From Opitutales bacterium (GTDB taxonomy: Bacteria; Verrucomicrobiota; Verrucomicrobiia; Opitutales; Oceanipulchritudinaceae), in the NCBI GenBank assembly GCA_020831525.1, contig JAFIGH010000001.1, positions 1 through 64,000 on the forward strand: DNA of 64,000 nucleotides. Direction: 5' to 3'. A program made the translations under genes and the position numbers. The first letter of the stretch is position 1, and each line of letters begins with the position of its first letter. Shown piece by piece: positions 2,617 to 21,980 of this stretch. The notes beneath the pieces were generated by a model that was given only the letters and a program-made list of their open reading frames with translations, had not been told where the DNA came from and made no database searches.

Positions 2617-3319
2617 TCAGCGTCTATTAAAGAACGCCGTGGCCGTGAGCGGAGGCATCGTCAGCTCGGCGCGGCTGATATGACGCGGGCCGCGGTCGTG
2701 CCAGTCGCCGAGGCCCTCGCTCAGAATTCCGTCTTCGGTGCGGGACTCGAGGTAGGCGAAGTAGCGCTTCGGCAGGCGCCGGGCGTCAAAGTCTTCGCCG
2801 CCGTAAATATTGGAGTAGGTGATGGCTCCGGGATGCGTGCGCCATGTGCCGTCGGTTCCCACGACTTCGACGGATCCGTCGTCGTATTCGAGGCGCAGGT
2901 GTGCGATGAGCCGTTGTTCGCCGAAGCTGCCGATGAACTTGGTGAAACGCCCTTCCCGCTCCACATGGTACATGCCGTTGCCGGGCGCAACACCGAGCGC
3001 GTTGGAACCGCCGCGCAGCATGCCGGTGATATTGCGGGTGTCGTGGAGAGTCGATACCGAATAGAGGGTCCACCCGGCCGCTGTCCCACAGGTCCCCTTC
3101 GTCGCGGGCGAGCCGGTCGGGTGACGAAGCGACAAGGATCCGCCACGCGGTCTGGCGCTGGCCGCGTTCATCGCTTTCCATGCGCCAGTAGAGGCGGGGC
3201 TCGGCGACGTCGATACCGAGCGGATCGGGGGAATACTCGCAGCGCAGACCGACGATGCGGGTGTCCGCGAAGACCGGGCCGGCAAGAATGAGAAATGCAA
3301 GGGCGATTCGATACAACAT
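2617..3319 (-). pseudogene. Decayed GH78 alpha-L-rhamnosidase
   Basis: From the ATG at 3319 the frame encodes a signal peptide and the GH78 N-domain up to GDLWDSGRVD, very like the intact enzyme at 32115. The next recognisable segment (LHDTRNITGMLRGG through GGEDFDAR) lies in another frame and corresponds to sequence about 110 residues further on, so an internal deletion has shifted the frame. A second deletion of roughly 330 residues joins GGEDFDARR to YFAYLESRTEDG, removing the catalytic REKLGW region. The gene then ends at TATAFF, lacking the last 240 or so residues. It cannot encode an active rhamnosidase. The GH28 remnant upstream reads into it without a stop. Confidence 0.85.
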
Positions 3320-4277: not shown

Positions 4278-4478
4278 CTACGGTTGGGCGTTGTCGGGAT
4301 CCTCTCTCGGGTCGGTGGCGCCGGCCGCTATGAGGCGGAGGGCGAACCAGCCGACAGTGAGGATGAGGGCGGTGGTGTTGAGGGCGGGTCCGCTGATGCG
4401 GCCGGCGGCGAAGAGGATACCGGCGGTGAGGATGCCGAGGAGGCAAAGGTAGGCGATGGCTTTGAGGACGGGTTTCAT
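4278..4478 (-). CDS. Small two-TM protein coupled to NCS1 permease
   Basis: The ATG at 4478 overlaps the stop codon of the permease gene as ATGA, so translation is coupled. The 66-residue product has two hydrophobic segments (about residues 7-27 and 35-54), a short loop with GRISGPAL, and a charged tail ending in DPREDPDNAQP. I do not know a named family for it. Its size, membrane nature and coupling suggest an accessory subunit or stabiliser of the permease. The tail abuts the GH28 remnant with no spacer, so the original C-terminus may have been altered by the deletion that removed the GH28 start. Confidence 0.65.
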   Translation of the reverse strand: MKPVLKAIAYLCLLGILTAGILFAAGRISGPALNTTALILTVGWFALRLIAAGATDPREDPDNAQP

Positions 4479-5878
4479 GATCGGGCGCGGAGGAGGTAAC
4501 GGGAGTGGAGGATGTAGACGGCACCGCAGACGAGCCACACCGGGAGTGTGAGGAAGGAGGGATAGACGCCCTTCTGGAAGAAGACGAAACCGAGGATGAG
4601 GCTGGCCGCCCATGCTGTGACGACAGCGGGGTTGAGGGTGGATCCGGTTCGTTCGGCGTAGTTGGAGGCATGCCTCATGCGCGGGAGGATGAAGTGGTCG
4701 GCAAGGAGCACGGCGCCGACGGGCGCGAGAATCATGCCGTAGAGACCGACGAAGCCGAGCAGTTGCATGGCGATGGCGGGGAACATGCCGGCGAACGTGG
4801 CGAGCATGCCGGTGACGAGCGTGACGCGGTATCGCGACTGTTTCGGAAAGATGGCCTGGAAGGCAAGGCCTGCGCGGTAGATCGTCGGGTTGGCGGTGGT
4901 CCAGCCCGCGATGACAACGCAGAGCAGTCCGGCGAGTCCGACGGCCTCAGCGGCCATGGGGCCGGGGAGGATGGCGAAGTTGCCGGGGTTTTGGCGCAGG
5001 TGGACGGCGAAGAGGAGGGAGGCCGCGATCCACGCCATGAAGTGGCCGATGTACATGCCCGCGGCGGAGGCCCAACCGTAGCTCGGTTTGCGGGCGTAGC
5101 GCAGGACGCTCATGTCGGCCATGCCGAAGTGCATGGCGGCGTTGGCAAACCACGAGAAAAAGAATACGTGCCAGAAAGTGAATTTGATTTGGCCGGGGAG
5201 CGGATCGCCGCCGGTCCAGATGACATTCTTGGCCGCGTCCCAGAACTGGCCGGGGTGCTCGATGCCGAGTTTGGGCAGGGCGGTGAGGCCGCAGACAAGG
5301 AAGATCGTGATCATCCACGGAGCGGCGTGGTTGGCGACGCGCGCGACTGTGTCGTACCCGCGGGCCGCGACGTAGGAGATGACTGCGCCGATGGCGAAGA
5401 CGACGAGGATCCATGTGATTCCGGTGGGGTAGCGGTCGGTCAGCTCGGGCATCGGCATGTTGAGCGGCAGCCCGACGGCGGTGGCCGAGACGGTGATCAT
5501 GGAGCCCGCGAGAAAGCAGAAAAGGAGGCCGTTGGCGGCGTTGTAGACGACGACAAACTTGCGCCCTGAGATCTTCTCCAGCTGGTAGTAGAGGGTGAGG
5601 CGCGCGCTTGTGGCCATGGGCGCGGTGAGGAAGCGCCAGCTGAGGACGGCCATGAGATTGCCGAGGAGAAGACCCGTGACGAGGTCGAAGGCGCTGACGC
5701 CGGCGGCGAGAAAGAGCGGCCCGATCATGAATTCGGTGCCGGCCGTGTGCTCGCCCGCGTACATACCCCAGAAGCTGCGGGCGGGTTTCTGGTTCTGCGG
5801 CGGGACGGGAGTGCGTTCAAACTCGCCCCCCGGCTCAACGGGCGGCGGAGGGCTTGCTTGGGTCGGGTCTTGGCTCAT
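4475..5878 (-). CDS. NCS1/cytosine-permease-like symporter
   Basis: This 467-residue membrane protein has about 12 hydrophobic segments. The front part (FWGMYAGEHTAGTEFMIGPLF, then GLLLGNLMAVLSWRF) and the middle (FFFSWFANAAMHFGMADMS) are typical of the nucleobase:cation symporter-1 family, LeuT-fold inner-membrane transporters. The start MSQDPTQ at 5878 is preferred: codons further upstream lie in the intergenic region and the end of the GH2 gene. The protein follows secreted hydrolases and sugar-acid enzymes, so its cargo here is more likely a product of those hydrolases than a nucleobase, but the substrate cannot be read from sequence. Confidence 0.82.
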   Translation of the reverse strand: MSQDPTQASPPPPVEPGGEFERTPVPPQNQKPARSFWGMYAGEHTAGTEFMIGPLFLAAGVSAFDLVTGLLLGNLMAVLSWRFLTAPMATSARLTLYYQLEKISGRKFVVVYNAANGLLFCFLAGSMITVSATAVGLPLNMPMPELTDRYPTGITWILVVFAIGAVISYVAARGYDTVARVANHAAPWMITIFLVCGLTALPKLGIEHPGQFWDAAKNVIWTGGDPLPGQIKFTFWHVFFFSWFANAAMHFGMADMSVLRYARKPSYGWASAAGMYIGHFMAWIAASLLFAVHLRQNPGNFAILPGPMAAEAVGLAGLLCVVIAGWTTANPTIYRAGLAFQAIFPKQSRYRVTLVTGMLATFAGMFPAIAMQLLGFVGLYGMILAPVGAVLLADHFILPRMRHASNYAERTGSTLNPAVVTAWAASLILGFVFFQKGVYPSFLTLPVWLVCGAVYILHSRYLLRARS

Positions 5879-5907: not shown

Positions 5908-8900
5908 CTACTCGACTTCGAGTTCGTCGAAGAGGAGGCGCGGAAGGTGCGGACTGGACAAGCGTATGATGTATGTGCCTGCGTTGATGCTGTTGCAAGT
6001 GCGGTTTCGCGAGATGATCCACTCGCCGGGGGCGGACGGGGCGTCGAAGGTCACGGTGTCGCTGCAGACGACGCGGCCTTCGCGGTCGATGATCTCGTAG
6101 TCGGCGGTGAAGGCGATTGGCTCCGCCATGGAGTAGCGGAAGTTGAAGTTGTAGCGGTCGCCGGCGTCGACGGAGATGATCCAGTCGAAGGTGCCGATGT
6201 CCGTGTCCGTGAGGTCGAGGTACCCGCCGCCGGAATACCCGGGGACGGCCGTCCGCACCGTTCCCTCGACAAACTCCAGCTCTTCGGCGGGATAGTATTG
6301 GGCGGCGCGGATAGTGCGGGTGAGGACGGAGTACATGTGTGCCTCGCCGCCGCCGGGAAGTGCCGGGTTGGGGCCGAGGCTTGCGGTGTCGCCGGGGTTG
6401 AAGCGCTCACGGTAGAGGCTGAAACGGTAGTTGTCGCCCGGCGCGGAAACGACGGTGTGCGGTGTTTCGAGCCAGCCTTCGATCCAGTTCGGCGTCTCTT
6501 CAATGCGCTCGTCGAGGGCGACGAGGACCTCGAGGTGGTCTTCGACTTTGAAGGTGGCGCGGAGGGCCGGGTTGGCGGCGTCCGCCTGGGCTGTCTGGAT
6601 CCAGTCGACGTCGCTGAACATGTTGGGGAACTGGACGAGGACGGGACCGCCGTCGGTGTATTGGTCGCGGCCCGCGCGGAAGTTGCCGACCGCGCGCCAG
6701 CCCTCGGGGGCGCGGCTGTTTTCCACGGCGAGGCCGTGAATCTGCTCGGCGGGCGGGGGCGGGCGGCGCTCCTGCACGATGACGGAATACATACGTCCGT
6801 CGCCGCCGGACGCTTCGCCATTGGGGCCGAGGACGACGGTGTCGCCGGCGTCGAAGCCGCGGCGGAAGAGTTCGAGGGGATGCTCCGGGGCGTCGGCGCC
6901 GGTCATGGTGTAACCGGTCGGATCCCAGCCGCGCAGCCATTCGGGTTTGGGGCGGACGGCAGGGTCGTGCGCGATGAAGACGTCGGCGTCGTCGCGCACC
7001 GTGAAGCGCATCAGTTCGCCGCTGTCGAAGGAGCGCGATTCCTGCGCCGTGCGGATCCACTCGGCTTCCCGAACTTCCCATGCGAGGTCGCTGATGGCGT
7101 GGTCGCGGTCGCCGTATTGGCGCATGCCAGTGTCGGCCCATGTAAGGGCGGCGAATTTGCGGGCGTTGGCGGCGTCGAAGACGGAAAAGTCCTGGATGAG
7201 GCGGTCCGGCCGCGGAGGGGCCCCGGCGGAGGCGTCCGCCGTGGATACGGCGAGCGCGGAGATGACGGCCTGGGTGGAGAGGACGCGCGGGAAGGAGACG
7301 ACGAGCTTGCCGTCGACGGCTGTTGCTTCGACATCTTTGCGGAGGGCATGCGCGCGGCCGACCTTGGACCAGATGTCGAGGTTTTCGATGACGGCCTCGC
7401 CGTTGACGGCGACGTCGAAGATCCGCCAGCCGGTGCAGTCGAGCCCGCCGCCGGTGCCATACCAGGGTTCGACGAAGTAGAGTTCCACTATGTATTCGCC
7501 GTCGGGTACATGGAAGACGAAGTCGAGTTCGTCGCGCCCGTAGCGGAAGGACTGGAAGAGGAGGTCGTCGCGGGTGTCGGCGACGGGATCGTAGATCTTG
7601 CGCTTGCTCCCGAAGACGGGGTGCAGGTTGGGGTAGGCGGAGGCCCATGAGCGCGATCCCCAGCTGTCGCCTTCGCGGTAGACGTTGTCGGCCTGCCACA
7701 CGTTGCCGTTGGTGTCGGTGTAGTCGGGGCCGCCGGCGTTGACTCGGAAGAGATAGTTGCGGTCTTCGAGGGGGGCGGTGGGGTTGCCCGCGCCATCCTT
7801 GAGCCGCTCCCACCCCGGGCCGCGGGGCAGGTGGTGGAGCTTGATGAGGTCGGTGGCGACGACTTCGCCGCCGACGCGCGCCTCGGCGTAGAGGAGGTTG
7901 GTCTCAATCGGCACGTCGTCCCAGCGGAAGTGGGTGCCGGGCTCGCCGCGGCTGCGCACGCCGAGTGACTCGCCTTTGTAGTCGTTGAAGAGTTCGACCT
8001 CCTCGGCGTTGGAATAGACGCGGATGCCGTCTTTGCGCCCCGGCTCGGTCCAGCGGTCGGGCCATGTGTGGGAGGCGATGTAGACCATGGGCTCGGTGTC
8101 GGCGGGCGCGTAATTGGAGCGGTACATGTAATAAACGTCGAGGAGTTCGCCCCAGATCGTTTGCAGCCCCTTGTTGTTGGCGGGACCGATCCGGTCGAAA
8201 TCGCGGATGCCGTCGCGTGTCTGCGTGCCGCGGTTGCCCACGTTGCGGCCGGGATTCTGGTGGGTGGTGAAGGGCCACATGAAGTGCCCGATGACCTTGT
8301 CGCGCACGGTCTCGGCGAGATGCACCTTCTTCTCCATGAGGAGGTTCATGCGCGGCTCGGTGTGCGGGCCGTCCTGCTTGAATTCGCCTTCGTCGTGGTG
8401 CTCGATGTTGCGCCATGCGCCGTATTCGCCGACGAGGCGCTGGTGGCGCAGGTCTTCGGCGTAGAGCGTGGGGTCGCCCCCGTAAGTGCCGGTCCAGTTT
8501 TGCGGGATGTCCCAGTCGGTGCCTTCGCCGCCGTTGCACGAGGCGACGAGGCGCTGGATGCTCGCCGTGGGGTCCATCTCGCGGATGATGGCGACGTTTT
8601 CCTTGGTGAACCAGACGGGCAGTTTGCTCTCGTTCTGGAGGCCGTAGAGGATGAGGGAGGGGCTGTTGCGCCGCTCGCGGATCCAGTCGCGCACGAGGGC
8701 CTTGAAGTTGGCCTGGAAGTTTTCGTTGTCGAACCAGATCTGCGCGCCGTTCTGCGTCCACCAGAGCATGCCCTCGCGGTCGACAAAGCGCTGGAAGCGG
8801 AGATTGTGCGGGTGGTGGGCATCGCGGAAGGCATTGAACCCGGCGGCCTGGATCTTGCGGATGCGGGTGAGCACTTCTTCGTCGGTGAAGGCGTGGCTGT

Positions 8901-9987
8901 TGCCCATGATGTGCTCGTAGTCGGCCACGCCGTTGATGAAGAAGGGCTCGCCGTTGAGAAGGAGGGGTTGATCGATGGGGCCTTCAACGTCGGGCCATTC
9001 GACCCAGCGGATGCCGAAGGGATTGATGATGCGGTCGACGACTTCGCCGCCCTCTTTGATGACCGTCTCCATGGTGTAGAGGTAGGGGTCGGACGGCGAC
9101 CAGAGGCGCGGGTTGTTGAGGGTGGGGGTGTCCTGACCGAGGATGGTCGTGGCACCGGGCCGCACGAACGTGTCGGTCGTCATTTCGGCGACGGTCCCGC
9201 CGTCGGCGTCGAGAACGCGGTTGACGAGAGTGAAGTCGCGGCGCTGCGCGCTGTAGTTGCGGATTGTGGTGCGGGTATGGACGACGGCGGCCTCGGCGGA
9301 GATCGTCTCGTCGTTCCAGATGTGCACGCCGAAGGGCTCGACACGCAGTGAGTCGGTGATGATGACGTGGGCCGGACGCGAGATGCCGAAGGGCTGCGTA
9401 CCTTCGGAGAAACCGTAGGTGAGTTCGCAGCCGCCGCAGACCCACGGGAGGTCGCGGATGCCCGACGGGTGGTCGGCGCGCAGGGCGACGGTGTTGGGAC
9501 CGTCGAAGTCGACGGCGTGCGTGATATCGAAAGTGAAGGTGAGAAGTCCGCCGCCGTGGTGGCCGATGAGCTTTCCGTTGATCCACACGGTGGCGTAGGA
9601 ACCCACGCCCTCGAACATGAGGAAGACTTGCCGCGCGGCGTCGGCGGGATCGAGTTCGAAGCTGCGGCGGTACCATGCCGAGCCGTGGAAGACGCCGTGC
9701 TTGGCTTGGCGGAAGCCCTCGTAGCCGTCCCAGTTGTGGGGGACGGTGACGGCTTTCCAGCCGCTGTCGTCAAAGCCCGGCTTTTCAAAGTCGGGGATGA
9801 CTTTGGCGTCGTCAGCGCTGGCGGTGCTGCGCCATCCGTCGTCGAGGAGGATGGAGCGGCGCGGCGAGTGGTCTTCGTCCGGCCACGGCACATTGGCGCC
9901 GAGCGTGGCGAAACCAAAGAGGAGGGTGCCCGCAGTGGCGAGGCGGAGAGTTTTAGTCGTCGGAGCGGAGTTCAATGGATACATCAT
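5908..9987 (-). CDS. Giant secreted GH2 glycosidase with malectin-like domain
   Basis: This 1359-residue protein has a signal peptide, a GH2 jelly-roll domain (about 45-230), an Ig-like domain and a TIM barrel (about 350-640). Acid/base Glu453 lies in YGLQNES and nucleophile Glu521 in GEYGAW. A malectin-like sugar-binding domain follows at about 740-900 (FRVNAGG start). Two tandem copies of a module occupy about 965-1080 and 1125-1235, each with WI-TAQ, P-W--GW, and GDT---LGPN. A final beta-sandwich closes the chain. GH2 covers beta-galactosidases, beta-glucuronidases and beta-galacturonidases; which this is cannot be decided. The start overlaps the upstream gene by 35 bp. It is far longer than the usual 600-1000 residues because of the added C-terminal modules. 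Confidence 0.85.
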   Translation of the reverse strand: MMYPLNSAPTTKTLRLATAGTLLFGFATLGANVPWPDEDHSPRRSILLDDGWRSTASADDAKVIPDFEKPGFDDSGWKAVTVPHNWDGYEGFRQAKHGVFHGSAWYRRSFELDPADAARQVFLMFEGVGSYATVWINGKLIGHHGGGLLTFTFDITHAVDFDGPNTVALRADHPSGIRDLPWVCGGCELTYGFSEGTQPFGISRPAHVIITDSLRVEPFGVHIWNDETISAEAAVVHTRTTIRNYSAQRRDFTLVNRVLDADGGTVAEMTTDTFVRPGATTILGQDTPTLNNPRLWSPSDPYLYTMETVIKEGGEVVDRIINPFGIRWVEWPDVEGPIDQPLLLNGEPFFINGVADYEHIMGNSHAFTDEEVLTRIRKIQAAGFNAFRDAHHPHNLRFQRFVDREGMLWWTQNGAQIWFDNENFQANFKALVRDWIRERRNSPSLILYGLQNESKLPVWFTKENVAIIREMDPTASIQRLVASCNGGEGTDWDIPQNWTGTYGGDPTLYAEDLRHQRLVGEYGAWRNIEHHDEGEFKQDGPHTEPRMNLLMEKKVHLAETVRDKVIGHFMWPFTTHQNPGRNVGNRGTQTRDGIRDFDRIGPANNKGLQTIWGELLDVYYMYRSNYAPADTEPMVYIASHTWPDRWTEPGRKDGIRVYSNAEEVELFNDYKGESLGVRSRGEPGTHFRWDDVPIETNLLYAEARVGGEVVATDLIKLHHLPRGPGWERLKDGAGNPTAPLEDRNYLFRVNAGGPDYTDTNGNVWQADNVYREGDSWGSRSWASAYPNLHPVFGSKRKIYDPVADTRDDLLFQSFRYGRDELDFVFHVPDGEYIVELYFVEPWYGTGGGLDCTGWRIFDVAVNGEAVIENLDIWSKVGRAHALRKDVEATAVDGKLVVSFPRVLSTQAVISALAVSTADASAGAPPRPDRLIQDFSVFDAANARKFAALTWADTGMRQYGDRDHAISDLAWEVREAEWIRTAQESRSFDSGELMRFTVRDDADVFIAHDPAVRPKPEWLRGWDPTGYTMTGADAPEHPLELFRRGFDAGDTVVLGPNGEASGGDGRMYSVIVQERRPPPPAEQIHGLAVENSRAPEGWRAVGNFRAGRDQYTDGGPVLVQFPNMFSDVDWIQTAQADAANPALRATFKVEDHLEVLVALDERIEETPNWIEGWLETPHTVVSAPGDNYRFSLYRERFNPGDTASLGPNPALPGGGEAHMYSVLTRTIRAAQYYPAEELEFVEGTVRTAVPGYSGGGYLDLTDTDIGTFDWIISVDAGDRYNFNFRYSMAEPIAFTADYEIIDREGRVVCSDTVTFDAPSAPGEWIISRNRTCNSINAGTYIIRLSSPHLPRLLFDELEVE

Positions 9988-11755
9988 CGATCAAGAAGGT
10001 TTTGAGCGGGGTTTTGTCGTCGGCGCCGGGCATGTCGTCCGGGCCGCTGGCGGGGCGCCGGCGGTATTCGCCGGTGCGGAAGGTAAGGCGTTCGACGGTG
10101 GACGGGTAGTCCGTCACGTAAGCGATGCGGTAGAGGACTTCCTCGCCGTCGACGCGGAGCTGGAAGCGTTCGGTGTTGCCGCCCGGATTCACGTCCAGCT
10201 CGAAGTCAATCCAGCGCCCGGCCTCGTAGGTGCCGGCGGGTTTCCACATGCCCTCGTGGCGGGCGATGACGCGCCCCTCTTCGGTGAGCGCGATCTGTAC
10301 GGGGCGCAGGCCGTCGCCGCTGTTGACATCGATCTCGAAGCGGCCGTCGGTCTGCTCCGCGAAGAGGCGGAAGCGGATGAGCACGCTGCGCCGCGGCGCG
10401 AAGACGCGCGTGGCGGAGGCGTAGTCGTAGGGGTCTTCGTCGCGCAGGCGCAGCGCGCGGCCCTGCGGCGAGCCGGTGTCGACGACGTCGACGGGCGCCC
10501 AGAGCGGACGGTAGACATTCCAGCCCTGCGGCATGTCGCCTACGGCGGTGTCTTCAAAGTCTTCCATGAGGTCCCCGGCGGGAACGTCGGCGGTGACGGG
10601 GACGGGCACACGGCTGACCCACATGTCCTCTTTGTTCACGCTGTAGGCGACCCAGAACTTGCCGTCGGGGGGCTCGCCGTTGCCGGGCACGATGCCGCGC
10701 ACATACTGCGGCCCCATGTTTTTGTAGTATCCGGGGAAGCGCTGGTGGGGCAGCTCGCCGTGGATGGAAAGCAAGTCGGTGAAGCGGCTGCCGTCTTCGC
10801 TGAGAGTGACGGCGAGCGGATGGCGCAGACGGGAGGTGGGGTTGAAAACGATGGCGAAACGCCCGTCGGAGGTTTCCTGCGCCCAGTATTTCGAACCGTT
10901 GCGCCAGAAGCCGGGGGCGGCGCCGGGGCGTTCCCAGCTCTGGCCCTCGTCGTCGGTGTAGGAAATCTGCGCGCCCTTCCAGATGCCGACGACGCGGCCC
11001 TCCGGCTGGCGGAACCACGAGAGGGCGCGACCGGACACTGTGTAGAATCCGTCTTCAGAGCGGTCCTCCTCCCACCACTGCGCGGTGGTGAGCTTGTCTT
11101 CGAGGAGGGCGTCGCAGGCGGCGACAAAACCTTCGTCGGGCGAATCCTTGTAGAAGGGATATTCGGCGGCTTTGGCCGGATCCCAGCCCGGATGGGAGTT
11201 GTAGCGGATGAAATAGATCGGACCGAAGGAACCGTCCTCATAGATTTCGCGCACGACGCGACCGATGCCCTCGCCGTTGTTCGGGCTCGGCGCTTCGCCG
11301 TGGAAAGCGAGGCTGAGGAGCCGCCCGTCGGGGGCGACGTAGAAGCCCATGCGCTGGTGGGTGAGCGTCTGGCTGCCGTCGGGCAGTGTCATGGCGGGAA
11401 AGATGAGGCGCGGGTCGTCCCAGTGCACGCCGTCCTCGGAGGTCATGACGGAGGTGTCGGTCGGCGTCTCGTGTTCGCTTACGGGGGCGCTGAGGTAGTG
11501 CAGGTAGAAGCGGCCGTTCCAGTAGGCGAGATTGGCCGCGTGCAGATAGGTGTGGTTGAGCCCGTCGGCGTGCGTCGGCGTGGTGCGGTTGGCGCGGTAG
11601 GTCTGGATGTTGTGCGTGCCCACGGCCCAGCGCAGTCCGCCGTCGGCGTTCGTGTTGGGCTGGATGTCCGTCTCGAGGATGACGGGGTGCTCTGCATTCG
11701 CGGCAGCGACGGTGGCGGCGGCGAGGGCGAGGGTTATGGGAAGGAGCGATTTCAT
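9953..11755 (-). CDS. Secreted sialidase-like beta-propeller protein
   Basis: This 600-residue protein begins with a clear signal peptide (MKSLLPITLALAAATVAA). It continues with beta-propeller blades carrying Asp-box-like turns (TSEDGVHWDD near residue 107; TDDEGQSWERP further on). From about residue 395 a second jelly-roll domain starts (DLMEDFEDTAVGDMPQGW), typical of a LamG or CBM-like module. The fold is that of sialidases and related propeller glycosidases and lyases. In pectin clusters such proteins act on ulosonic acids of rhamnogalacturonan II or on Rha-GlcA caps (families GH33, PL27, GH145). Family membership is not resolved by eye. It lies 13 bp after the pdxA-like gene. Confidence 0.65.
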   Translation of the reverse strand: MKSLLPITLALAAATVAAANAEHPVILETDIQPNTNADGGLRWAVGTHNIQTYRANRTTPTHADGLNHTYLHAANLAYWNGRFYLHYLSAPVSEHETPTDTSVMTSEDGVHWDDPRLIFPAMTLPDGSQTLTHQRMGFYVAPDGRLLSLAFHGEAPSPNNGEGIGRVVREIYEDGSFGPIYFIRYNSHPGWDPAKAAEYPFYKDSPDEGFVAACDALLEDKLTTAQWWEEDRSEDGFYTVSGRALSWFRQPEGRVVGIWKGAQISYTDDEGQSWERPGAAPGFWRNGSKYWAQETSDGRFAIVFNPTSRLRHPLAVTLSEDGSRFTDLLSIHGELPHQRFPGYYKNMGPQYVRGIVPGNGEPPDGKFWVAYSVNKEDMWVSRVPVPVTADVPAGDLMEDFEDTAVGDMPQGWNVYRPLWAPVDVVDTGSPQGRALRLRDEDPYDYASATRVFAPRRSVLIRFRLFAEQTDGRFEIDVNSGDGLRPVQIALTEEGRVIARHEGMWKPAGTYEAGRWIDFELDVNPGGNTERFQLRVDGEEVLYRIAYVTDYPSTVERLTFRTGEYRRRPASGPDDMPGADDKTPLKTFLIDDVSIELRSDD

Positions 11756-11768
11756 AGATTGACGGGTG

Positions 11769-12782
11769 TTAGCGTGTGTTGGACTTCGTGCCGCTCAGGA
11801 GGGCGGCCATTTTTATGGCTTCGATGAGGCTGCGCGGATCGGATCGACCGGTGCCGGACATGTCGAAATTCGTTCCGTGCTCGACGGACGTGCGGATGAT
11901 GGGCAGGCCGAGAGTGACGTTCACGCCGCGCCAGATCCCGAGCATCTTCACGGCGACGTGGCCTTGGTCGTGGTACATGGCGACGGCGGCGTCGAACTCG
12001 CCGTGGAGGGCGCGGAAGAACACCGTGTCGCCGGGGTGCGGTCCGGAGACGTTGTAGCCTTGGCGGCGTGCCTCCTCGATGGTCGGCGTGATGTAGTGCG
12101 CTTCCTCATCGCCGAAGAGTCCGTTTTCGCCCGCGTGCGGGTTGAGTCCGGCGACGGCGAGGCGGGGCACTTTGATGCCCATGCTGCGCAGTGCTTCGCG
12201 GGTGAGGTCGAGTACCTTGAGGATGCGTTCCGGGCGCACGCGGTCGATCGCCTCGCGCAGGGATACATGGGTGGAGACGTGGCTCACGCGCAGGTCGCCC
12301 GCGGCAAGCATCATCGTCGCCCCGGGAGATTTGCAGAGTTCGGCGAGGAGCCCGGTGTGGCCGTCGAAGTGGTGACCGGCGGCGTTGAGGGCCTCCTTGT
12401 TGATGGCGGAGGTGACGATGCCCGCGGCCTCGCCCGCGAGCGCGAGTTCGGTTGCGCGCACGATGTATTCGTAGCCCGCTTGACCGGCCGGCTTGCTCAC
12501 CTTGCCCAGTTCGAGCCGCGCGATGTCGATGTTGGCGAGGTCGACGACCTCGATGCGGTCGGCGGAGGGTGCGGCGGCGGCAATGTTGTCAACGGCGTGG
12601 ATTCCGGCGGTGCAGCCGGTGTAGCCTGCGGCGGCGCGGAGAACGGCGGCGTCGCCCACGACAACGGGGCGGCAGAGGGCGAGAATCTCCGGATCGACGA
12701 GCGCGCGGGTGATCAGCTCCGGGCCGGTCCCGGCGGGGTCGCCCATGGTGACGGCGAGGATGGGTGTGCGGGTGCGGTTCAT
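11769..12782 (-). CDS. PdxA-family 4-phospho-acid dehydrogenase
   Basis: This 337-residue protein has full PdxA signatures: TMGDPAGTGPEL at residues 11-22, the metal-ligand histidine in VSTHVSLREA, and MYHDQGHVAVK near residue 270. PdxA oxidises 4-phosphohydroxy-threonine in vitamin B6 synthesis. The PdxA2 subgroup, always next to a DUF1537 kinase, oxidises D-threonate or D-erythronate 4-phosphate to a 3-keto acid that decarboxylates to dihydroxyacetone phosphate. Here the start codon overlaps the DUF1537 kinase stop (ATGA), which argues for the catabolic PdxA2 role. Length matches the family. Confidence 0.88.
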   Translation of the reverse strand: MNRTRTPILAVTMGDPAGTGPELITRALVDPEILALCRPVVVGDAAVLRAAAGYTGCTAGIHAVDNIAAAAPSADRIEVVDLANIDIARLELGKVSKPAGQAGYEYIVRATELALAGEAAGIVTSAINKEALNAAGHHFDGHTGLLAELCKSPGATMMLAAGDLRVSHVSTHVSLREAIDRVRPERILKVLDLTREALRSMGIKVPRLAVAGLNPHAGENGLFGDEEAHYITPTIEEARRQGYNVSGPHPGDTVFFRALHGEFDAAVAMYHDQGHVAVKMLGIWRGVNVTLGLPIIRTSVEHGTNFDMSGTGRSDPRSLIEAIKMAALLSGTKSNTR

Positions 12783-13963
12783 GTTTGCGCGGGTTCCGGC
12801 TGGGTGTTCGTAAGGAGGTCGTGAACGGCGGGCGGCCACGGATAACTGCCCGGCTTGAGGGTGAAGGTGGCATGCGGGGCTTCCCGCGGCGAGAGGGAGA
12901 CGACACCGGGGCTCCATTCGCAGATGACGCAGAGGCGTGTCCAGCCGAGACGGCGCGCCACAGTGACGGCTGTCGCACCGCCTTCGACGATAAGATGGAT
13001 GTTGTCGTGACCGGAAGATACATGATATGCGACTTCCGCGAGAGCGGCGGCAACGGCGGTGGCATCGGCCGGGTCGGGTGAGTCGACCCGTGCGGGAAAG
13101 GCGGCGGCGACGCCGTCCGCAGCGAGTTTGGCACGGAGGCTTTCGGCCCACTGCGCGATGTCGCCCTTGGCGAGGCGGTCGTGCGGATGGCCCGGGCCAA
13201 AGGCGGCGGCGAGGAGATGCTGCGCGGAGGCGGCGGTTGTGCCGGAGACAAGAAGGGTCGGGGCTCCCGGGGCGCGGGGTGCTCCGTGGCTTTCCACCGG
13301 GTCGACGAAGTCCCGGTTGCGTTGCAAAACCGCGGTGAAGAAGGCGGCGGACCCTGCCGCGAGAGTGGAGTCGTCGAGGCAACTCGCCCATGCGGCGAGA
13401 TCTTCCGCCGAGGCGGCGTCGCCTGCGGCGATGCCTCGCACGGGCAGGGCTTCGCCGCGGCGGAGGGAAACAACGGGCCGGAGCCCCCCGTCGCCGAGAA
13501 GCGCGGCCACTTCGTCGGTGCGGGCGGGGTGGTGCGGATCGCGCGCAAAGTCGGTTTTGTGCAGGGGAATGCCGTTTATGCGGTAGCGCCCTCCTTCGAT
13601 GGAACGTCCCAGTACGGGGTTCGCCGGTACAACGAGGGCACGCGCAAAGCCGAGGCATTCCGCCGCCGCCCCCAACTCCGCCGCCACCGGTCCGCGCAGC
13701 ACGGAGTCGATCTTCTTGAAGAGCAGTGGGCCGGAGCCATCCAGTTGCCTCAGGGCGCTAAGACATTCCGCTACCCGCCGTGCCGCTTTTTCTCCGTTCA
13801 GCAGCCGTGTATCCGTGTCGACGACGAGGACATCCGTGTCACCGGCCGGTTGTCCGGCGTCGAGGCATACCTCCGCGGCAAGACCACGGCGGTGCACGAC
13901 GGCCGCAACCTCGCACGCACCGGTGAGGTCGTCGGCCAAGACGATGGGCGTCCGGCCTCGCAT
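12779..13963 (-). CDS. DUF1537 four-carbon acid-sugar kinase
   Basis: This 394-residue protein starts IVLADDLTGACEVAA, the DUF1537 N-terminal signature. FKKIDSVLRGPV, VVPANPVLGR and the C-terminal nucleotide-binding VEGGATAVTVARRLG follow. Family members phosphorylate D-threonate, D- or L-erythronate and related oxo-acid sugars at the terminal hydroxyl, using ATP. The product is normally the substrate of the adjacent PdxA2-type dehydrogenase, encoded in overlap immediately downstream. ATG at 13963 lies 4 bp after the aldolase stop. The usual isomerase or aldolase partners of the known threonate and erythronate pathways (OtnC, OtnI) are absent; a DapA-family aldolase takes that place. Confidence 0.88.
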   Translation of the reverse strand: MRGRTPIVLADDLTGACEVAAVVHRRGLAAEVCLDAGQPAGDTDVLVVDTDTRLLNGEKAARRVAECLSALRQLDGSGPLLFKKIDSVLRGPVAAELGAAAECLGFARALVVPANPVLGRSIEGGRYRINGIPLHKTDFARDPHHPARTDEVAALLGDGGLRPVVSLRRGEALPVRGIAAGDAASAEDLAAWASCLDDSTLAAGSAAFFTAVLQRNRDFVDPVESHGAPRAPGAPTLLVSGTTAASAQHLLAAAFGPGHPHDRLAKGDIAQWAESLRAKLAADGVAAAFPARVDSPDPADATAVAAALAEVAYHVSSGHDNIHLIVEGGATAVTVARRLGWTRLCVICEWSPGVVSLSPREAPHATFTLKPGSYPWPPAVHDLLTNTQPEPAQT

Positions 13964-13967
13964 ACGA

Positions 13968-14876
13968 TCAGCGCAGGTTGCAGGCGAGAAGCTCGACGCA
14001 GATGCCTTCCCGTTCTTTTTCCGGAATGGTCCGCAAGGGCGGAAGGACGTATGGCTCGCAGAGGCTCTGCTCGGCGAGGAGCACCTTGAGGGCGGCGAGG
14101 GATTGGCCGAGCGTGCGGTTTCCTTGGAAGACCCATGCGACCTCGTTGAGTAGGGTTTGCAGCCCGAAGGCTTCATTCCACTCGCCGTTGCGGGCGTGGT
14201 TGTACAGTTTCTCCCAGAGGGCCGGGACGAGATTGCCGGAGTTGGGGACAAGTCCGCTGTAGCCGAGCTTGAGGGCGTCGACAGAGAGGACGGAGGTGCC
14301 CATGAAGAGGGCGAAATCTTCACGCTCGGCGAAGCGGCGCGCGGCATCCTCCATGCGTCCGTCGACGCGTTCGGAGTCTTTGAAGCCGACAATGCGCGGG
14401 AGTTCGGAGAGATATTCAACGACAGTGAGCGGAAGAGACATGCCTGTCGTGGCGGGAATGTTGTAGAGGATGAGCGGGCCCTTCACATGATCGTGCAGTC
14501 GCTCGAAGTAGAGTTGCATCTCGTCAGGTGTGAGCGGGTAGTAGGAGGGCAGATGGGAGACGACGGCAGTGACGCCGGCGTCGAGGTAGCGTTCGGCGGC
14601 CTTGACCGCGTTGGTGAAGCAATTATCGCCGATGCCGGCGTAGACGTGCACGCGGTCGTCGACGGCACGCAGAACCGTAGTGACGAGGCGGAAGCGGTCA
14701 GTTCGGGGGATGGAGGCGGTTTCGCCGGTCGTGCCGAGGACAAAGACGCCGATGTTATGGGCGGCGAGGCGTCGCGCGATGCGTTCGACCGCCGGTTCGT
14801 CGATATCCCCGTCCCGTGTGAAAGGGGTGATCATGGGAACGACGACGCCGCTGTGGTGGTGGGGCTCGGAATTCAT
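13968..14876 (-). CDS. DapA-family aldolase, left operon
   Basis: This 302-residue TIM barrel belongs to the dihydrodipicolinate synthase / N-acetylneuraminate lyase family. GTTGETASI gives the phosphate/carboxylate loop, YNIPATTGM carries the active-site tyrosine, and the Schiff-base lysine lies in VGFKDSER (about residue 165). Such enzymes cleave 2-keto-3-deoxy sugar acids into pyruvate and an aldehyde, or make the reverse condensation. It lies between a Fe-dependent alcohol dehydrogenase and an acid-sugar kinase. A plausible order is aldolase cleavage, then reduction or oxidation of the aldehyde. The exact substrate is not deducible. Confidence 0.87.
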   Translation of the reverse strand: MNSEPHHHSGVVVPMITPFTRDGDIDEPAVERIARRLAAHNIGVFVLGTTGETASIPRTDRFRLVTTVLRAVDDRVHVYAGIGDNCFTNAVKAAERYLDAGVTAVVSHLPSYYPLTPDEMQLYFERLHDHVKGPLILYNIPATTGMSLPLTVVEYLSELPRIVGFKDSERVDGRMEDAARRFAEREDFALFMGTSVLSVDALKLGYSGLVPNSGNLVPALWEKLYNHARNGEWNEAFGLQTLLNEVAWVFQGNRTLGQSLAALKVLLAEQSLCEPYVLPPLRTIPEKEREGICVELLACNLR

Positions 14877-14878
14877 GG

Positions 14879-16042
14879 TTATAGGGCTTGGTGGTAGATT
14901 TGCTCGGCGTCGGCTTGGCTGACGGGGCGGGGATTGTTTTTGAGGAGGCGCGTGACCTTGAGGGCCGCCGCGGCGAGCGATGGAATGTCTTCGGCCGTCA
15001 CGCCGCAGGCCGAAAGGCCTTTGGGCAGGCCGCAGCGCGCCGATAGCTGTTCGACGAGGCGAACGCCCTCTTCGGCGGTGGCCATGATGTCTGAGCCTGC
15101 CTCAGCGCCCATGGCTCTGGCCACGGCGGCGTGGCGCTCAGGAGCGGCGGAGATGTTGAAGCGCAGGACGTGCGGAAGAAGAAGCGAGTTGGAAAGTCCG
15201 TGGGGGAGGCGGAAGCGGCTGCCGAGAGGATACGAAAGGGCGTGCACCGCGGCGGTGTTCACCGGACCCAGACAGTAGCCGCCGTAGAGGCTGCCGAGAG
15301 AGAGTGCGGCCCGCGCTTCGAGGTCCGAACCGTCGCGCACGGCGCGCTCGAGAGCGCCCGCGATGAGGCGAACGCCTTCAAGGGCGTAGAGATCGATGAC
15401 CGGATGGGCGAACAGATTGGTATAGGCCTCGATGCAGTGCGAAAGCGCGTCGATGCCGGTCGCGGCGGTGATTTCCGGTGGCAGGCTGAGCGTAAGGCAG
15501 GGATCCACAAAGGCGGCGTCGGGCACCAGAGCCGGGCCAATGGCCGCCCGCTTGGCCTTGGCTTCTTCGTCGTAGAGAATGGCATTGGGCGAGACTTCAC
15601 TTCCGGTGCCTGAGGTGGTGGGAATGCAGACGAGCGCGGCGCGGCGCGGTGGCGGAGGTCCCGCTCCGAGGAGATCCCGCACTCCGTAGTCCGCCCCGGC
15701 TACGGCGGCGGCGAGTTTGGCGACGTCGAGGACGCTGCCGCCGCCGAGACCGATAACGACGTCCGGCGCAGGTGAACCGGCTGCTCGCACGACGGCCTCG
15801 CACGCTGCCACATCCGGTTCCGGCGGGACGCTCTCGTCGATAATCAAGGATTCGACCGCTTCGCCGCATGCGGCAATGGCCGCCTCCGCGCCGCCGATGT
15901 GCGGCGACTTCACGACGAGAACTTTCCGGTAGCCTCCGGCGCGAAGAAACTCAGCGCAACCGTCGACTGCACCGGCCCCGTAACGCAGCAAGGGCGGGCG
16001 CAGAAGCGTCACCGGACCGGAGAGTTTTGAGGGAGCGTGCAC
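14879..16042 (-). CDS. Iron-containing alcohol dehydrogenase
   Basis: This 387-residue protein has the group III Fe-ADH signatures: GGGSVLDVAK (NAD-binding, about 99-108), IPTTSGTGSE, and the metal-binding histidines in ALSHCIEAY and HALSYPLGSRFRLPHGL. These enzymes reversibly reduce aldehydes or oxidise alcohols with NAD(P). The close relatives FucO and YqhD reduce lactaldehyde or similar short products of deoxy-sugar breakdown. GTG at 16042 is the likely start. It is the first gene of the left operon, and a promoter with a LacI-type operator lies about 180 bp upstream. In context it probably handles the aldehyde released by the neighbouring aldolase. Confidence 0.87.
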   Translation of the reverse strand: MHAPSKLSGPVTLLRPPLLRYGAGAVDGCAEFLRAGGYRKVLVVKSPHIGGAEAAIAACGEAVESLIIDESVPPEPDVAACEAVVRAAGSPAPDVVIGLGGGSVLDVAKLAAAVAGADYGVRDLLGAGPPPPRRAALVCIPTTSGTGSEVSPNAILYDEEAKAKRAAIGPALVPDAAFVDPCLTLSLPPEITAATGIDALSHCIEAYTNLFAHPVIDLYALEGVRLIAGALERAVRDGSDLEARAALSLGSLYGGYCLGPVNTAAVHALSYPLGSRFRLPHGLSNSLLLPHVLRFNISAAPERHAAVARAMGAEAGSDIMATAEEGVRLVEQLSARCGLPKGLSACGVTAEDIPSLAAAALKVTRLLKNNPRPVSQADAEQIYHQAL

Positions 16043-16216: not shown

Positions 16217-16245
16217 AAATTGTTTCAATGAAACATCGAAGTCAA
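16217..16245 (-). promoter_or_regulatory. Left-operon promoter with LacI-type operator
   Basis: Read on the minus strand, TTGACT (16240-16245) and CAATTT (16217-16222) are spaced by 17 bp. The spacer holds the perfect palindrome TGTTTCA-A-TGAAACA at 16221-16235. A dimeric LacI-family protein bound there would block RNA polymerase directly. The -10 hexamer is weak. The same palindrome core recurs near the regulator gene and near the right operon. Confidence 0.55.
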
Positions 16246-16755: not shown

Positions 16756-17883
16756 TCAGAGCTGTGCGACGGAGTCGCGGACGATTAGCTTGGGGGTGAC
16801 GAGGACTTGGATGTCCTGCTCGACTTCGGGGTGTTCCACGCGCCAGCTCAGTTGATCGACGGCGAGGTGCCCGATGAGGTCGGCCTGCACGTCGATGGTG
16901 GTGACGGCGGGGTGCAGGTTCATGACGAGAGATTCCTCGTTGTTGCAGGAGATCACACTTACGTCCTTGGCGACATGCAGTCCCGTCTGGTTGAGGACGG
17001 AGTAGAGCTGAACGGCCGTCCGGTCGGAGGGAACGAAGAGGGCGGTGGGGCGTTTTTTCGCCGGAAGGGCGGCCCATTCCTCGACGAGGTGTCTGACGTT
17101 GTCGATGAGGGTTATGGCGGGCAGGGGCCAGATGCGGGTGTCGGGCGGCGGTGACTCAAGGAGGCTGTATTCGAGGCCGAGTTGGGTGGCGGCAATGTAG
17201 AAAGCGGCTTTCAGTTGCTCAAACTGCACCTGGCCCGGCTTTGGGTTAAAAAAGGCGACACGGCGGTGCCCCCGTTCGCGCAGGTGTTCGGCGATGAACT
17301 GCCCGGCTTGGAGGGTGCTGAAATTGACGTGATCGCCGCGGGCGTTGAGCGGACGGCCCATGAGCCAGACGTGCGGGTAGCGGTTGATGCTGCGGACCAG
17401 TTCGCTCTTTGCGGGCGAGGGGATGTTGCCTTGGTTGGGGCCTTTGAGAATGAGGCCGCCGACGTGATCGTCGGCAAGAAACGGGGGCACGCGTTCGCCG
17501 TCGGGGATGTTGGCGAACAGGACGCTGCGCCCTTCCGCGGAGAGGCTGCGCTCGATGCCCTGCAGGGCCGTACTGACGACGGGGAGGTGGACAAGCGCGT
17601 CTTCCATGCCGAAGCAGACGACGCCGATGTTGCCGGTTTTGGCGCGGTCGCCGCCCGCGCGTGAACGTTTGCGCTGGCGCAGGCGCACGTAGCCGAGTTT
17701 GGCGGCGGCGGCGTGGACCCGTGCGCGGATGTCCTCGTGGACGTCGGCATGGTTGTTGAAGACCCGCGAGACGGTCCCGGTGGCGACTCCCGCCGCCTTG
17801 GCGACTTCGGTTATGGTCGCACGCGGTTTGGTGCGCACGGACGCGTTTTTTGCGGTTTTCGGGGGAGTCTTTATCTTCGTCAT
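16756..17883 (-). CDS. LacI-family transcriptional regulator
   Basis: This 375-residue protein has a basic N-terminal extension and then the LacI helix-turn-helix and hinge (TITEVAKAAGVATGTVSRVFN, about residues 23-43; ARVHAAAAKLGYV). A periplasmic-binding-type effector domain follows (NIGVVCFGMEDAL, VISCNNEES, VTTIDVQ). Such proteins bind palindromic operators and usually release them when a sugar binds. It sits between two oppositely oriented clusters, the natural place for a pathway-specific regulator. Palindromes TTTCAnTGAAA at 16221, 17945 and, in variant form, 19657 and 58158 are its likely sites. The one 62 bp upstream of its own start suggests autoregulation. The effector is unknown. 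Confidence 0.92.
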   Translation of the reverse strand: MTKIKTPPKTAKNASVRTKPRATITEVAKAAGVATGTVSRVFNNHADVHEDIRARVHAAAAKLGYVRLRQRKRSRAGGDRAKTGNIGVVCFGMEDALVHLPVVSTALQGIERSLSAEGRSVLFANIPDGERVPPFLADDHVGGLILKGPNQGNIPSPAKSELVRSINRYPHVWLMGRPLNARGDHVNFSTLQAGQFIAEHLRERGHRRVAFFNPKPGQVQFEQLKAAFYIAATQLGLEYSLLESPPPDTRIWPLPAITLIDNVRHLVEEWAALPAKKRPTALFVPSDRTAVQLYSVLNQTGLHVAKDVSVISCNNEESLVMNLHPAVTTIDVQADLIGHLAVDQLSWRVEHPEVEQDIQVLVTPKLIVRDSVAQL

Positions 17884-19354: not shown

Positions 19355-19617
19355 AATAATAAACATGCGTTGGATGCTCCTTCGTTCCGCTGTTTTCCTG
19401 CCGTCGTCCGTCCGGTTGGTGTTTTCGCTACGGGTCGCGGCTAAATTTTCCGGGCGGGGGCTGTGTCGGCGCGGGCGTAGGCGGAGCGGTATATAACCCG
19501 TCGCCAGGTTTTCGCGGGCCGCAGGTTCCGAAGGCTTTAATGTGCGGCGGGGCGGTCGTGCGAGCTGTCCGCCGTGGTGGTTTTCCGGCTGCGTCGGGAA
19601 ATTTCTTCGGAATTGCA

Positions 19618-19668
19618 TTGACACGGCCTTGGTGAAGCATGTTGAATTTTGGTCAGTTTCATATGAAA
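19618..19668 (+). promoter_or_regulatory. Right-operon promoter with LacI-type operator
   Basis: TTGACA (19618-19623) is followed after 18 bp by TTGAAT (19642-19647). TTTCATATGAAA at 19657-19668, a perfect 12-bp palindrome closely related to the TTTCAnTGAAA sites, covers the expected transcription start. It lies 60 bp upstream of the start codon of the first gene of the 38-kb run. Confidence 0.55.
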
Positions 19669-19727
19669 TAAAACGAATTTTTGCCGCTTCCCTTTTGGGC
19701 AGTGGCACTATCATTGATAAAGACCCC

Positions 19728-21980
19728 ATGAAACAAATCTGGAAATACCTCCTCACGCTTCTTCCGTTTCTGGTCGTCTGGGCGTTTCCCGCCCACGGCG
19801 ACGTTCCCTCGTTTCCCGGCGCGGACGAGGATGCGACGACCCCGGGCGGACGCTGGGGGCGCGTGATCTTCGTGACGAACCTGCAGGACTCCGGAGAGGG
19901 CAGCCTGCGCGCCGCGATGGAAACGGCGGGCCGCCGAATGGTGCTCTTTCATGTGAGCGGTGTGATCGAGCTGAAGTCGCCGATCACGGTGACGGCGCCG
20001 CGGATGACCGTGGCGGGCCAGTCCGCTCCCGGCGACGGTATTGTCATCAGCGGGGATGAGGTGGTGATCGACACGTACGACGTCATTCTGCGCTACCTGA
20101 CCTTCCACCGCGAGGGCCTGCGGGAGCAAGAGGACGCCCTGCGCCTGACCGACCAGGCGAAAGACGTGGTGACCGACAATCTCCGTTTCGTGCGCCGCCT
20201 CGACGGCGACCTTGCCTCCGTCCGTTCGGTTCTGCCGGCGGTGGACAGCGATCTCGACGGAATCCCCGATGCGTGGAAACGCCGTTTCGGGTTCGACCCG
20301 GACAATCCCCGCTTCGGCGTCTTCGACGCGAACCGCTCGGGGCTCAGCAACCTCGAGGAATTCCTCAGCGGGCGCGACCCGCGCAGCCGCATCGACTTTT
20401 CCGACCCGCGCCAGAATGTGAACGTACTCGATCCCGAAGTGCGCTTGGCCGACAGCGCGGAGGGTCAGACGCCCCGCCTGCGGTCCGCGCCGTATTACAT
20501 ACTGGATCCGGACGATTTTCAGCGGCACATCGAGTATTTCAACAGTGTCGACACCGAGGAGCGCGTTGTGAACAAGGTCTCAAACGCGGAGTCGTGGGAT
20601 TGGCTGAAGACGCGGATTCCGTTCTTCGAGTCGTCCGACGCCGACCTCGAGGAGATCTATTACTTCCGCTGGTGGGCTTTGCGCAAGCACCTCAAGACCG
20701 CCAACGGCTATCCGGCCTACACCGAGTTCATCGAACTGGAGACACAGGCACCCTTTGTTCCGGACCACCGCGTCATCGCGAGCGGCGTCTCCCACCACCT
20801 CCGCAACACCCGCTGGATGCGCGACCAGCAATTCGAGGAGGGTTATATCGACTTTTGGCTGAGGAGCAACGACGACCGGCCGCCGGACCACTTCCACCAG
20901 TACAGCAACTGGTTCCACCACACGCTCTGGGAGCGCAACAAGGTGGTCGATGACGACGAATTTCTCATTGAGCGTTTCGACGACCTGCTGGCCGATTACC
21001 GCGCATGGCAGGAAGAACATCAGCTGGAGAGCGGTCTCTACTGGCAGTACGATGTGTGGGACGCGATGGAGGAGTCCATCAGCGGTTCGCGCACGGAGAA
21101 AAACAAACGCCCGCCGCTGAACAGCTACATGTACGGCAACGCCCTTGGCATGGCGGAGATCGCGCGGTTGGCCGGTCGCCCGGAGATCGCGGCGGAATTG
21201 AAGGAGGAAGCCCGCGAACTGCGCGAGTTGACCCTCCACACCCTGTGGAACCCGGCGAGCCGTTTCTTCGAAGTGGTGCATGAGGACGGCACTTTTGCCA
21301 ATGTGCGCGAAGCCATCGGCTTCATCCCGTGGTATTTCCATCTGCCGGAAAAGAACCGCGGCTACGAGGTGGCTTGGAAGCAGGCCATCGACCCGGAAGG
21401 ATTTTGGGCACCCTACGGCTTCACCACGGCGGAGCGCCGTCATCCGCTCTTTCGCTCGCACAACATCGGCACCTGCGAGTGGGACGGCGCCGTGTGGCCG
21501 TTTGCCACCTCGCAGACGCTCGAGGCCATGGGCAACGTTCTCCGGGACTACGGGGACGTGCCGGTCACGGTCAAGGACTGGTTCGACGCCTTTATCATCT
21601 ACACCCGTTCGCACCGCTTCTACGACAACATCCCGTACATCGGCGAGTATCAGGACGAGGTCACGGGCTACTGGCTCAAGGGCAAAGATCCGCGCGCATA
21701 TTTCTACAATCATTCGACCTACGCGGACCTCCTCATCACCAACCTTGTGGGTCTCCGCCCGCGGGCGGACAATGTCCTCGAGGTGAATCCGCTGCTGCCG
21801 GAAGGGGAGTGGGCGTGGTTCGCCCTCGACGGGGTGCGCTACCGCGGGCACGACGTCACGATTCTGTGGGACCGCCTCGGCGACCGCTACGGATTCGGGC
21901 CGGGCTTTCATGTCTTGGTCGACGGCGAACTGTTTATGCAGGCGGACTCGTTGCAACGGCTCAAGGGAGAGCTACCCTGA
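19728..21980 (+). CDS. Truncated PL1-like domain fused to MGH1/GH63-like glycosidase
   Basis: This 750-residue protein has a signal peptide (about 1-24) and the first 135 residues of a PL1-type pectate lyase helix (GRVIFVTNLQDSGEGSLRAA, SAPGDGIVI). At residue 171 it jumps to the calcium-binding tail normally found at the C-terminus of such lyases (DSDLDGIPDAWKRRFG). The roughly 270-residue catalytic core of the lyase is missing. From about residue 255 comes an (alpha/alpha)6 glycoside hydrolase of the MGH1/GH63/trehalase kind, with YDVWDAMEESISGS, RPPLNSYMYGNA and CEWDGAVWPFATSQT. The lyase part is likely inactive, perhaps a binding domain; the hydrolase part looks intact. ATG at 19728 begins a good signal peptide. 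It is first in the right operon. Confidence 0.72.
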   Translation: MKQIWKYLLTLLPFLVVWAFPAHGDVPSFPGADEDATTPGGRWGRVIFVTNLQDSGEGSLRAAMETAGRRMVLFHVSGVIELKSPITVTAPRMTVAGQSAPGDGIVISGDEVVIDTYDVILRYLTFHREGLREQEDALRLTDQAKDVVTDNLRFVRRLDGDLASVRSVLPAVDSDLDGIPDAWKRRFGFDPDNPRFGVFDANRSGLSNLEEFLSGRDPRSRIDFSDPRQNVNVLDPEVRLADSAEGQTPRLRSAPYYILDPDDFQRHIEYFNSVDTEERVVNKVSNAESWDWLKTRIPFFESSDADLEEIYYFRWWALRKHLKTANGYPAYTEFIELETQAPFVPDHRVIASGVSHHLRNTRWMRDQQFEEGYIDFWLRSNDDRPPDHFHQYSNWFHHTLWERNKVVDDDEFLIERFDDLLADYRAWQEEHQLESGLYWQYDVWDAMEESISGSRTEKNKRPPLNSYMYGNALGMAEIARLAGRPEIAAELKEEARELRELTLHTLWNPASRFFEVVHEDGTFANVREAIGFIPWYFHLPEKNRGYEVAWKQAIDPEGFWAPYGFTTAERRHPLFRSHNIGTCEWDGAVWPFATSQTLEAMGNVLRDYGDVPVTVKDWFDAFIIYTRSHRFYDNIPYIGEYQDEVTGYWLKGKDPRAYFYNHSTYADLLITNLVGLRPRADNVLEVNPLLPEGEWAWFALDGVRYRGHDVTILWDRLGDRYGFGPGFHVLVDGELFMQADSLQRLKGELP

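Follow-up and report, generated by a model that had tools for sequence, protein, structure and literature searches.

A putative catabolic module for the rhamnogalacturonan II sugar Dha, linked to a GH143-family gene in Verrucomicrobiota

Few plant polysaccharides are as complex as rhamnogalacturonan II (RG-II). How a gut bacterium degrades it outside the cell has been established, and the intracellular fate of one of its sugars, Dha, is undescribed in the open literature that we searched. Dha is 3-deoxy-D-lyxo-hept-2-ulosaric acid, a sialic-acid-like seven-carbon (C7) diacid of RG-II side chain D with the D-lyxo configuration (PMC12168206). The glycosidase family GH143, founded on the N-terminal half of BT1020, releases Dha from RG-II and has retained the nucleophile pair Tyr-Glu known from sialidases (PMC6811678). 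Catabolism of D-threonate by a DUF1537-family D-threonate kinase and PdxA2 was described by Zhang et al. (2016), as cited in PMC10079672; the kinase and the 4-phospho-D-threonate dehydrogenase yield dihydroxyacetone phosphate (DHAP) and support growth on D-threonate (PMC10079672). Pathways for D-apiose that employ RuBisCO-like proteins were reported by Carter et al. (2018), as cited in PMC6302742. Here we analyze an operon within a 64,000-nucleotide stretch of DNA (the window) from an Opitutales bacterium (assembly GCA_020831525.1, contig JAFIGH010000001.1, positions 1 to 64,000). Four of its genes, encoding an iron-dependent alcohol dehydrogenase (Fe-ADH), a DapA-family aldolase, a DUF1537 kinase and a PdxA2 protein (together, the quartet), stand beside a GH143-family gene. 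We consider it probable that this operon is a dedicated catabolic module for Dha of side chain D.

The genome is 5.3 Mb in size (code G000; the window is its contig C167). The operon lies on the minus strand in the order Fe-ADH, DapA, DUF1537, PdxA, propeller, GH2:

14879-16042, minus strand: Fe-ADH (PF00465/PF25137; GTG start), proposed reductase of D-threuronate (2,3-dihydroxy-4-oxobutanoate)
13968-14876, minus strand: aldolase of the DapA/N-acetylneuraminate lyase (NAL) superfamily (PF00701), proposed Dha aldolase forming pyruvate and D-threuronate
12779-13963, minus strand: DUF1537 acid-sugar kinase of a short clade (PF07005 + PF17042), proposed D-threonate 4-kinase
11769-12782, minus strand: PdxA2-type protein (PF04166), predicted decarboxylating D-threonate-4-phosphate dehydrogenase forming DHAP
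9953-11755, minus strand: GH143-family beta-propeller (PF24067 Beta-prop_BT_1020, E 1.4e-88, + PF22585) with an apparent signal peptide, proposed Dha hydrolase
5908-9987, minus strand: large GH2 with a malectin domain (PF02836/PF02837/PF00703/PF11721), resembling the beta-glucuronidase part of the RG-II enzyme BT0996

Gaps of 2 bp and 4 bp separate Fe-ADH from DapA and DapA from DUF1537, respectively; DUF1537 and PdxA overlap by 4 bp (ATGA), 13 bp lie between PdxA and the propeller, and the propeller overlaps GH2 by 35 bp. An earlier reading of the window (the original prediction) had placed the four genes in one tight operon with the propeller and a giant GH2, as the coordinates confirm, and had claimed the translational overlap of DUF1537 and PdxA that is measured here. 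Its gaps of 3-4 bp at DapA and Fe-ADH were correct as to the tight spacing, the measured values being 2 and 4 bp. The clustering is not a matter of chance, because the five genes (quartet plus propeller) recur contiguously in many other genomes.

In the proposed pathway, the GH143 propeller would free Dha once a GH142 enzyme has taken off L-arabinofuranose (L-Araf), and a transporter would import it (an SSF symporter in relatives, perhaps an NCS1-like permease in the window). The DapA-family Schiff-base aldolase would cut Dha between C3 and C4 into pyruvate and D-threuronate, and Fe-ADH would reduce this aldehyde with NADH to D-threonate. The DUF1537 kinase would then form D-threonate 4-phosphate, which PdxA2 with NAD+ would oxidise and decarboxylate to DHAP and CO2. 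The predicted net conversion, Dha + ATP to pyruvate + DHAP + CO2 + ADP, would use each quartet gene once and be redox neutral, with the NADH spent by Fe-ADH regained at PdxA2. For relatives of these enzymes, GH143 activity and the D-threonate kinase and 4-phospho-D-threonate dehydrogenase are known from the literature; we infer the import, aldolase and reductase steps and the substrate of every enzyme in the window. By Fischer bookkeeping, C3-C4 retro-aldol cleavage of D-lyxo Dha followed by reduction of the aldehyde gives, of the four possible tetronates, only D-threonate. Thus the substrate expected from the quartet alone is a C7 2-keto-3-deoxy diacid, and one such compound, Dha, is independently indicated by the family of the neighbouring glycosidase.

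In the original prediction, a non-standard gene set converted a polysaccharide-derived sugar to a four-carbon acid, which was phosphorylated and then yielded a triose phosphate by oxidative decarboxylation, and a branched RG-II sugar was a candidate source. This outline, for a pectin-derived sugar, the unusual gene set and RG-II as the likely source are supported. A "propeller enzyme" had been noted and is present, and it had been missed that it belongs to GH143, a family of Dha hydrolases, and so points to the substrate. To set action on ordinary D-threonate against a link to pectin posed a false choice, since cleavage and reduction of Dha must, by stereochemistry, yield D-threonate as the C4 product.

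The gene set, the enzyme families, the conserved catalytic residues, the GH143 linkage and the stereochemical match come directly from the analysis. PdxA scores 296 bits against 2hi1, 277 bits against D-threonate 4-phosphate dehydrogenase 6e85 and 200 bits against the biosynthetic PdxA of E. coli, and by these scores is clearly of the PdxA2 type. It passes only the general model TIGR00557 and is below the cut-off of the D-threonate-4-phosphate dehydrogenase equivalog NF002891 (323.6 bits against 583). Among NCBIfam models the kinase scores best with D-threonate kinase (NF047819), and its AlphaFold2 (AF2) model (pLDDT 85.5) gives good fold matches to DUF1537 structures only; judged by its sequence, it is a divergent member of that family. 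No OtnC- or OtnI-type domain occurs among the operon genes, DUF1537 being paired with PdxA2 instead. The aldolase scores below the cut-off of TIGR00674, the model for true DapA (4-hydroxy-tetrahydrodipicolinate synthase; 148.6 bits, cut-off 206.15). Its Schiff-base lysine K166, catalytic tyrosine Y138, T49, T50 and GTTGE motif are invariant, and the structure closest to its AF2 model (pLDDT 92.5) is the C. glutamicum NAL 5c54; residues, motif and modelled fold fit a class I pyruvate aldolase of the DapA/NAL superfamily. In the tree, a branch with support 89/81 separates the DapA proteins of the quartets from paralogs. The nearest solved relatives of Fe-ADH are methanol dehydrogenase 8zrl and lactaldehyde reductase 1rrm, and the expected metal ligands D198, H202, H267 and H281 are invariant in 8/8 relatives compared. 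A housekeeping role in lysine or B6 metabolism for the quartet aldolase and PdxA was rejected, as the genome has five other genes of the dihydrodipicolinate synthase (DHDPS) family, the strongest on contig C62 (293 bits), and a second PdxA on contig C75.

The only solved relative of the propeller by sequence is BT1020 (5mqr/5mqs). Propeller residues 34-593 align to the N-terminal half of that protein (5mqr 38-608, E 6.2e-125), and 43.8% of 544 positions are identical. Of 20 near-invariant polar residues mapped with an alignment of 97 sequences, all are common to the two. We infer that the window propeller is specific for Dha from its family, its residues and its context rather than from orthology with BT1020. 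The second catalytic half of that protein also has an equivalent in the window:

19542-21980, plus strand: GH142-type enzyme (residues 301-808 match 5mqr 603-1102, E 4.5e-148), predicted to remove L-Araf from chain D

The operon GH2 scores 1192 bits against the beta-D-glucuronidase/beta-L-arabinofuranosidase model NF049877 (model positions 356-1251 of 1400), missing the cut-off of 1800. Other window genes encode GH78, GH95-GH105, CE8, GH2, PL1, GH28 and an apiosidase-like protein (PF13204, 25106-26734). By gene content the window is an RG-II locus, because GH143, GH142, a BT0996-like GH2 and further pectin/RG-II enzymes are all present.

Occurrence was surveyed in 388 genomes of the phylum, which were searched for PF24067 with matches called strong at E below 1e-40. 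The quartet search was anchored on DUF1537, whose neighbourhoods were profile-searched, and a quartet without DUF1537 would escape it; two DUF1537 loci, G010:C17 and G293:C22, in genomes without the quartet, were left out. Strong PF24067/GH143 matches were found in 12 genomes and DUF1537, which is rare, in 25. The quartet was found in 11, all of which have strong GH143, versus one of the 377 remaining genomes. Seen from the other side, 11 of the 12 strong-GH143 genomes have the quartet and none of the other 376 was found to contain it with the DUF1537 anchor. Five sample genomes have the DUF1537-PdxA pair without DapA and Fe-ADH (L175, L176, L177 and L184, with L195 at a contig end), and strong GH143 occurs in 0/5 of these versus 11/11 quartet genomes. 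Fisher p is about 2e-20 for quartet versus strong GH143 by genome and 2e-4 for the comparison with pair-only genomes, both values being optimistic, since the genomes are related and significance is overstated. No quartet was found in the twelfth strong-GH143 genome (G158), whose propeller belongs to another clade. One of the 11 quartet genomes (G373; L178, G373:C3:261000-279000) has frameshifts in every quartet gene, reflecting sequencing error or decay.

Scanning the propeller alignment against one genome per species gave 80 loci. The quartet is contiguous with GH143 in the window and in 14 distinct other loci (L035-L039, L042-L044, L049, L050, L051, L054, L056 and L065). This five-gene arrangement recurs within Opitutales, the label carried by the closest relatives found, L049 and L050. 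One of the loci, L051, is from Pelagicoccus, a quartet carrier available in culture. The order is rearranged in L045 (G169: GH143, Fe-ADH, DapA, PdxA, DUF1537) and in L128, from a metagenome-assembled genome of subdivision 3 (Fe-ADH, DapA, PdxA, sialidase-like BNR protein, DUF1537, GH143, GH143), and a Phycisphaerae contig (L072) starts with DUF1537 adjoining its propeller. Four genomes reached via GH143 carry the quartet away from the propeller: G389 (L191), G390 (L190), G391 (L192) and G399 (L185), the last with both on the same contig, roughly 20 kb apart. Linkage of the quartet and GH143 that survives rearrangement argues for shared function. The neighbourhood analysis of the four genes that had been suggested at the outset thus finds them recurring together, mostly contiguous with GH143. 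An SSF symporter directly precedes Fe-ADH in seven distinct loci (L036, L038, L039, L042, L043, L044 and L051) and follows the propeller in L035, L037 and L065. In L185 (9088-11886) and L128 (4047-6992) a sialidase-like FGE-PA14-BNR_2 protein is inserted between PdxA and DUF1537 and is a candidate alternative Dha hydrolase.

Besides the relatedness of the genomes, several observations weigh against a Dha module. The kinase is short, has a partial NBD_C match and fails the NF047819 cut-off by far (117.8 bits against 450). PF24067 is a broad family, and BT1020 sits on a long branch outside the clade of the window propeller. The window operon has no adjacent SSF symporter, and the NCS1-like permease there has no BLAST similarity to SSF proteins. 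L053, L063 and L064 belong to the window's own GH143 clade, and their genomes contain no DUF1537. Bacteroidota account for most of the GH143-family genes retrieved; no quartet was found within 10 kb of these and most of their genomes that were checked are without DUF1537, so Dha would be handled otherwise there, or not at all.

One operon could also house two unrelated functions, with DUF1537-PdxA2 serving imported D-threonate, and DapA and Fe-ADH another 2-keto-3-deoxy acid such as 2-keto-3-deoxygluconate (KDG) or 3-deoxy-D-manno-oct-2-ulosonic acid (Kdo), with Fe-ADH reducing the aldehyde formed from it. The pair does exist without DapA and Fe-ADH in the five genomes mentioned above, but the quartet stays together despite order changes and across classes, its DapA proteins are set apart from paralogs in the tree, and strong GH143 is confined to the quartet genomes in the comparison with pair-only genomes. 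We regard this explanation as improbable. Kdo itself was rejected as substrate: its retro-aldol cleavage gives D-arabinose, which does not feed into DUF1537/PdxA2. Another possibility is that the chemistry is as proposed and the source is not RG-II, being instead the Dha of green-algal scales (PMC1413533) or some other ulosaric polymer. Around some quartets there are sulfatase-like, BNR or LamG proteins and not pectinases; the neighbours in the window, however, are pectin/RG-II enzymes (GH142, GH2, GH28, GH78, CE8, GH95 and PL1), which makes such a source decidedly improbable.

The original prediction had named apiose as a candidate source, in which case an apionate-derived acid would be phosphorylated by the DUF1537 kinase and then decarboxylated. 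Apiose is an RG-II component, a DUF1537-type kinase takes part in D-apiose pathways, and the window has the apiosidase-like gene. Described D-apiose routes use RuBisCO-like proteins on phosphorylated acids (PMC6302742), but the operon lacks the expected RuBisCO-like protein. The only one in the genome is on contig C102 (2619-12303; L180), together with its own long-type DUF1537, an Asp/Glu racemase, a GH78-like protein and an FGGY kinase. This separate locus matches the described route and is probably the apiose/apionate route of the window genome, which makes apiose unlikely for the quartet. Nor does apiose require a pyruvate aldolase, and the glycosidase conserved alongside the quartet belongs to GH143 and is no apiosidase. 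An apiose route through this operon therefore seems very improbable indeed. Paenibacillus DapA and DUF1537 genes near GH143 were rejected as a quartet, DUF1537 there being of the long type, beside a RuBisCO-like protein, as in the apiose kind.

Three further genes accompany the Dha operon proposed here:

4475-5878, minus strand: NCS1/cytosine-permease-like transporter (weak match to NF008241), with a putative uptake role
2786-4190, minus strand: GH28 polygalacturonase-like gene that closes the operon at its 3' end, in overlapping, apparently broken reading frames (PF00295 on ORF 2786-4084)
16756-17883, minus strand: LacI-family regulator upstream of the operon (PF00356/PF13377)

LacI-family relatives of this regulator adjoin the quartet in L036, L044 and L051. 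A perfect palindrome, TGTTTCATTGAAACA, at about 16221-16235 of the window, upstream of Fe-ADH, was considered as a possible LacI operator; no such element lies upstream in 12 other quartet loci, and it is not counted as evidence. Elsewhere in the window, 28581-31021 (plus strand) holds an SSF symporter and, next to it, a second aldolase of the DHDPS family. This aldolase has a close relative (57%) near a propeller in G158 (L034), and Kdo is a possible substrate. The second PF24067 propeller of the genome, on contig C116 (L033:9772-11634), is accompanied by sulfatase-like genes and two DHDPS-family genes and has no quartet; this locus may serve another 2-keto-3-deoxy sugar. The GH143 loci L239 (Paenibacillus) and L053 (Paraglaciecola) contain FGGY kinase genes and split transketolase genes, a combination that an apiose transketolase route would call for and that supports an RG-II context for the GH143-family propellers there.

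No description of Dha catabolism, of a Dha aldolase, of a D-threuronate reductase or of the module as a whole was found in the open literature searched, and an earlier account in subscription articles is possible. The downstream half (the D-threonate pathway) and the glycosidase family are already known. On balance we favour the view that this is the first complete bacterial Dha route, in which a Dha aldolase and a D-threuronate reductase feed D-threonate kinase and PdxA2, and which travels with GH143 in Verrucomicrobiota and also occurs in forms that include other sialidase-like proteins and may act on Dha polymers of algae. If so, a gene can be named for every step of Dha utilisation, and D-threonate metabolism gains a natural source. 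The enzymes could be used for the assay or preparation of Dha, a compound that lacks reference material (PMC12168206), and the annotation of a gene lineage now named dihydrodipicolinate synthase and PdxA would be corrected.

Compared with the D-threonate pathway, the operon has the same kinase and decarboxylating dehydrogenase families, with a PdxA closest to the PdxA2 type and DHAP as the predicted product. It differs in that an additional aldolase and aldehyde reductase are predicted to generate D-threonate intracellularly from a polysaccharide sugar, and in that the kinase comes from a short, divergent clade. The D-apiose pathways likewise concern an RG-II sugar, but no RuBisCO-like protein is found in the operon and that set is separate, on C102. 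With sialic acid catabolism (sialidase, symporter and NAL) the proposed module shares a sialidase-like glycosidase, an SSF symporter in relatives and a pyruvate-releasing aldolase of the DapA superfamily, whereas its substrate would be a C7 diacid rather than a C9 sugar and its second product a C4 acid bound for a tetronate pathway, not N-acetylmannosamine. As in RG-II degradation by B. thetaiotaomicron, where BT1020 is a GH143-GH142 protein, there are GH143 and GH142 modules, a BT0996-like GH2 and other RG-II hydrolases. Here, in contrast, two separate genes in divergent clusters encode GH143 and GH142, and the GH143 gene is joined to genes predicted to catabolise the released sugar inside the cell.

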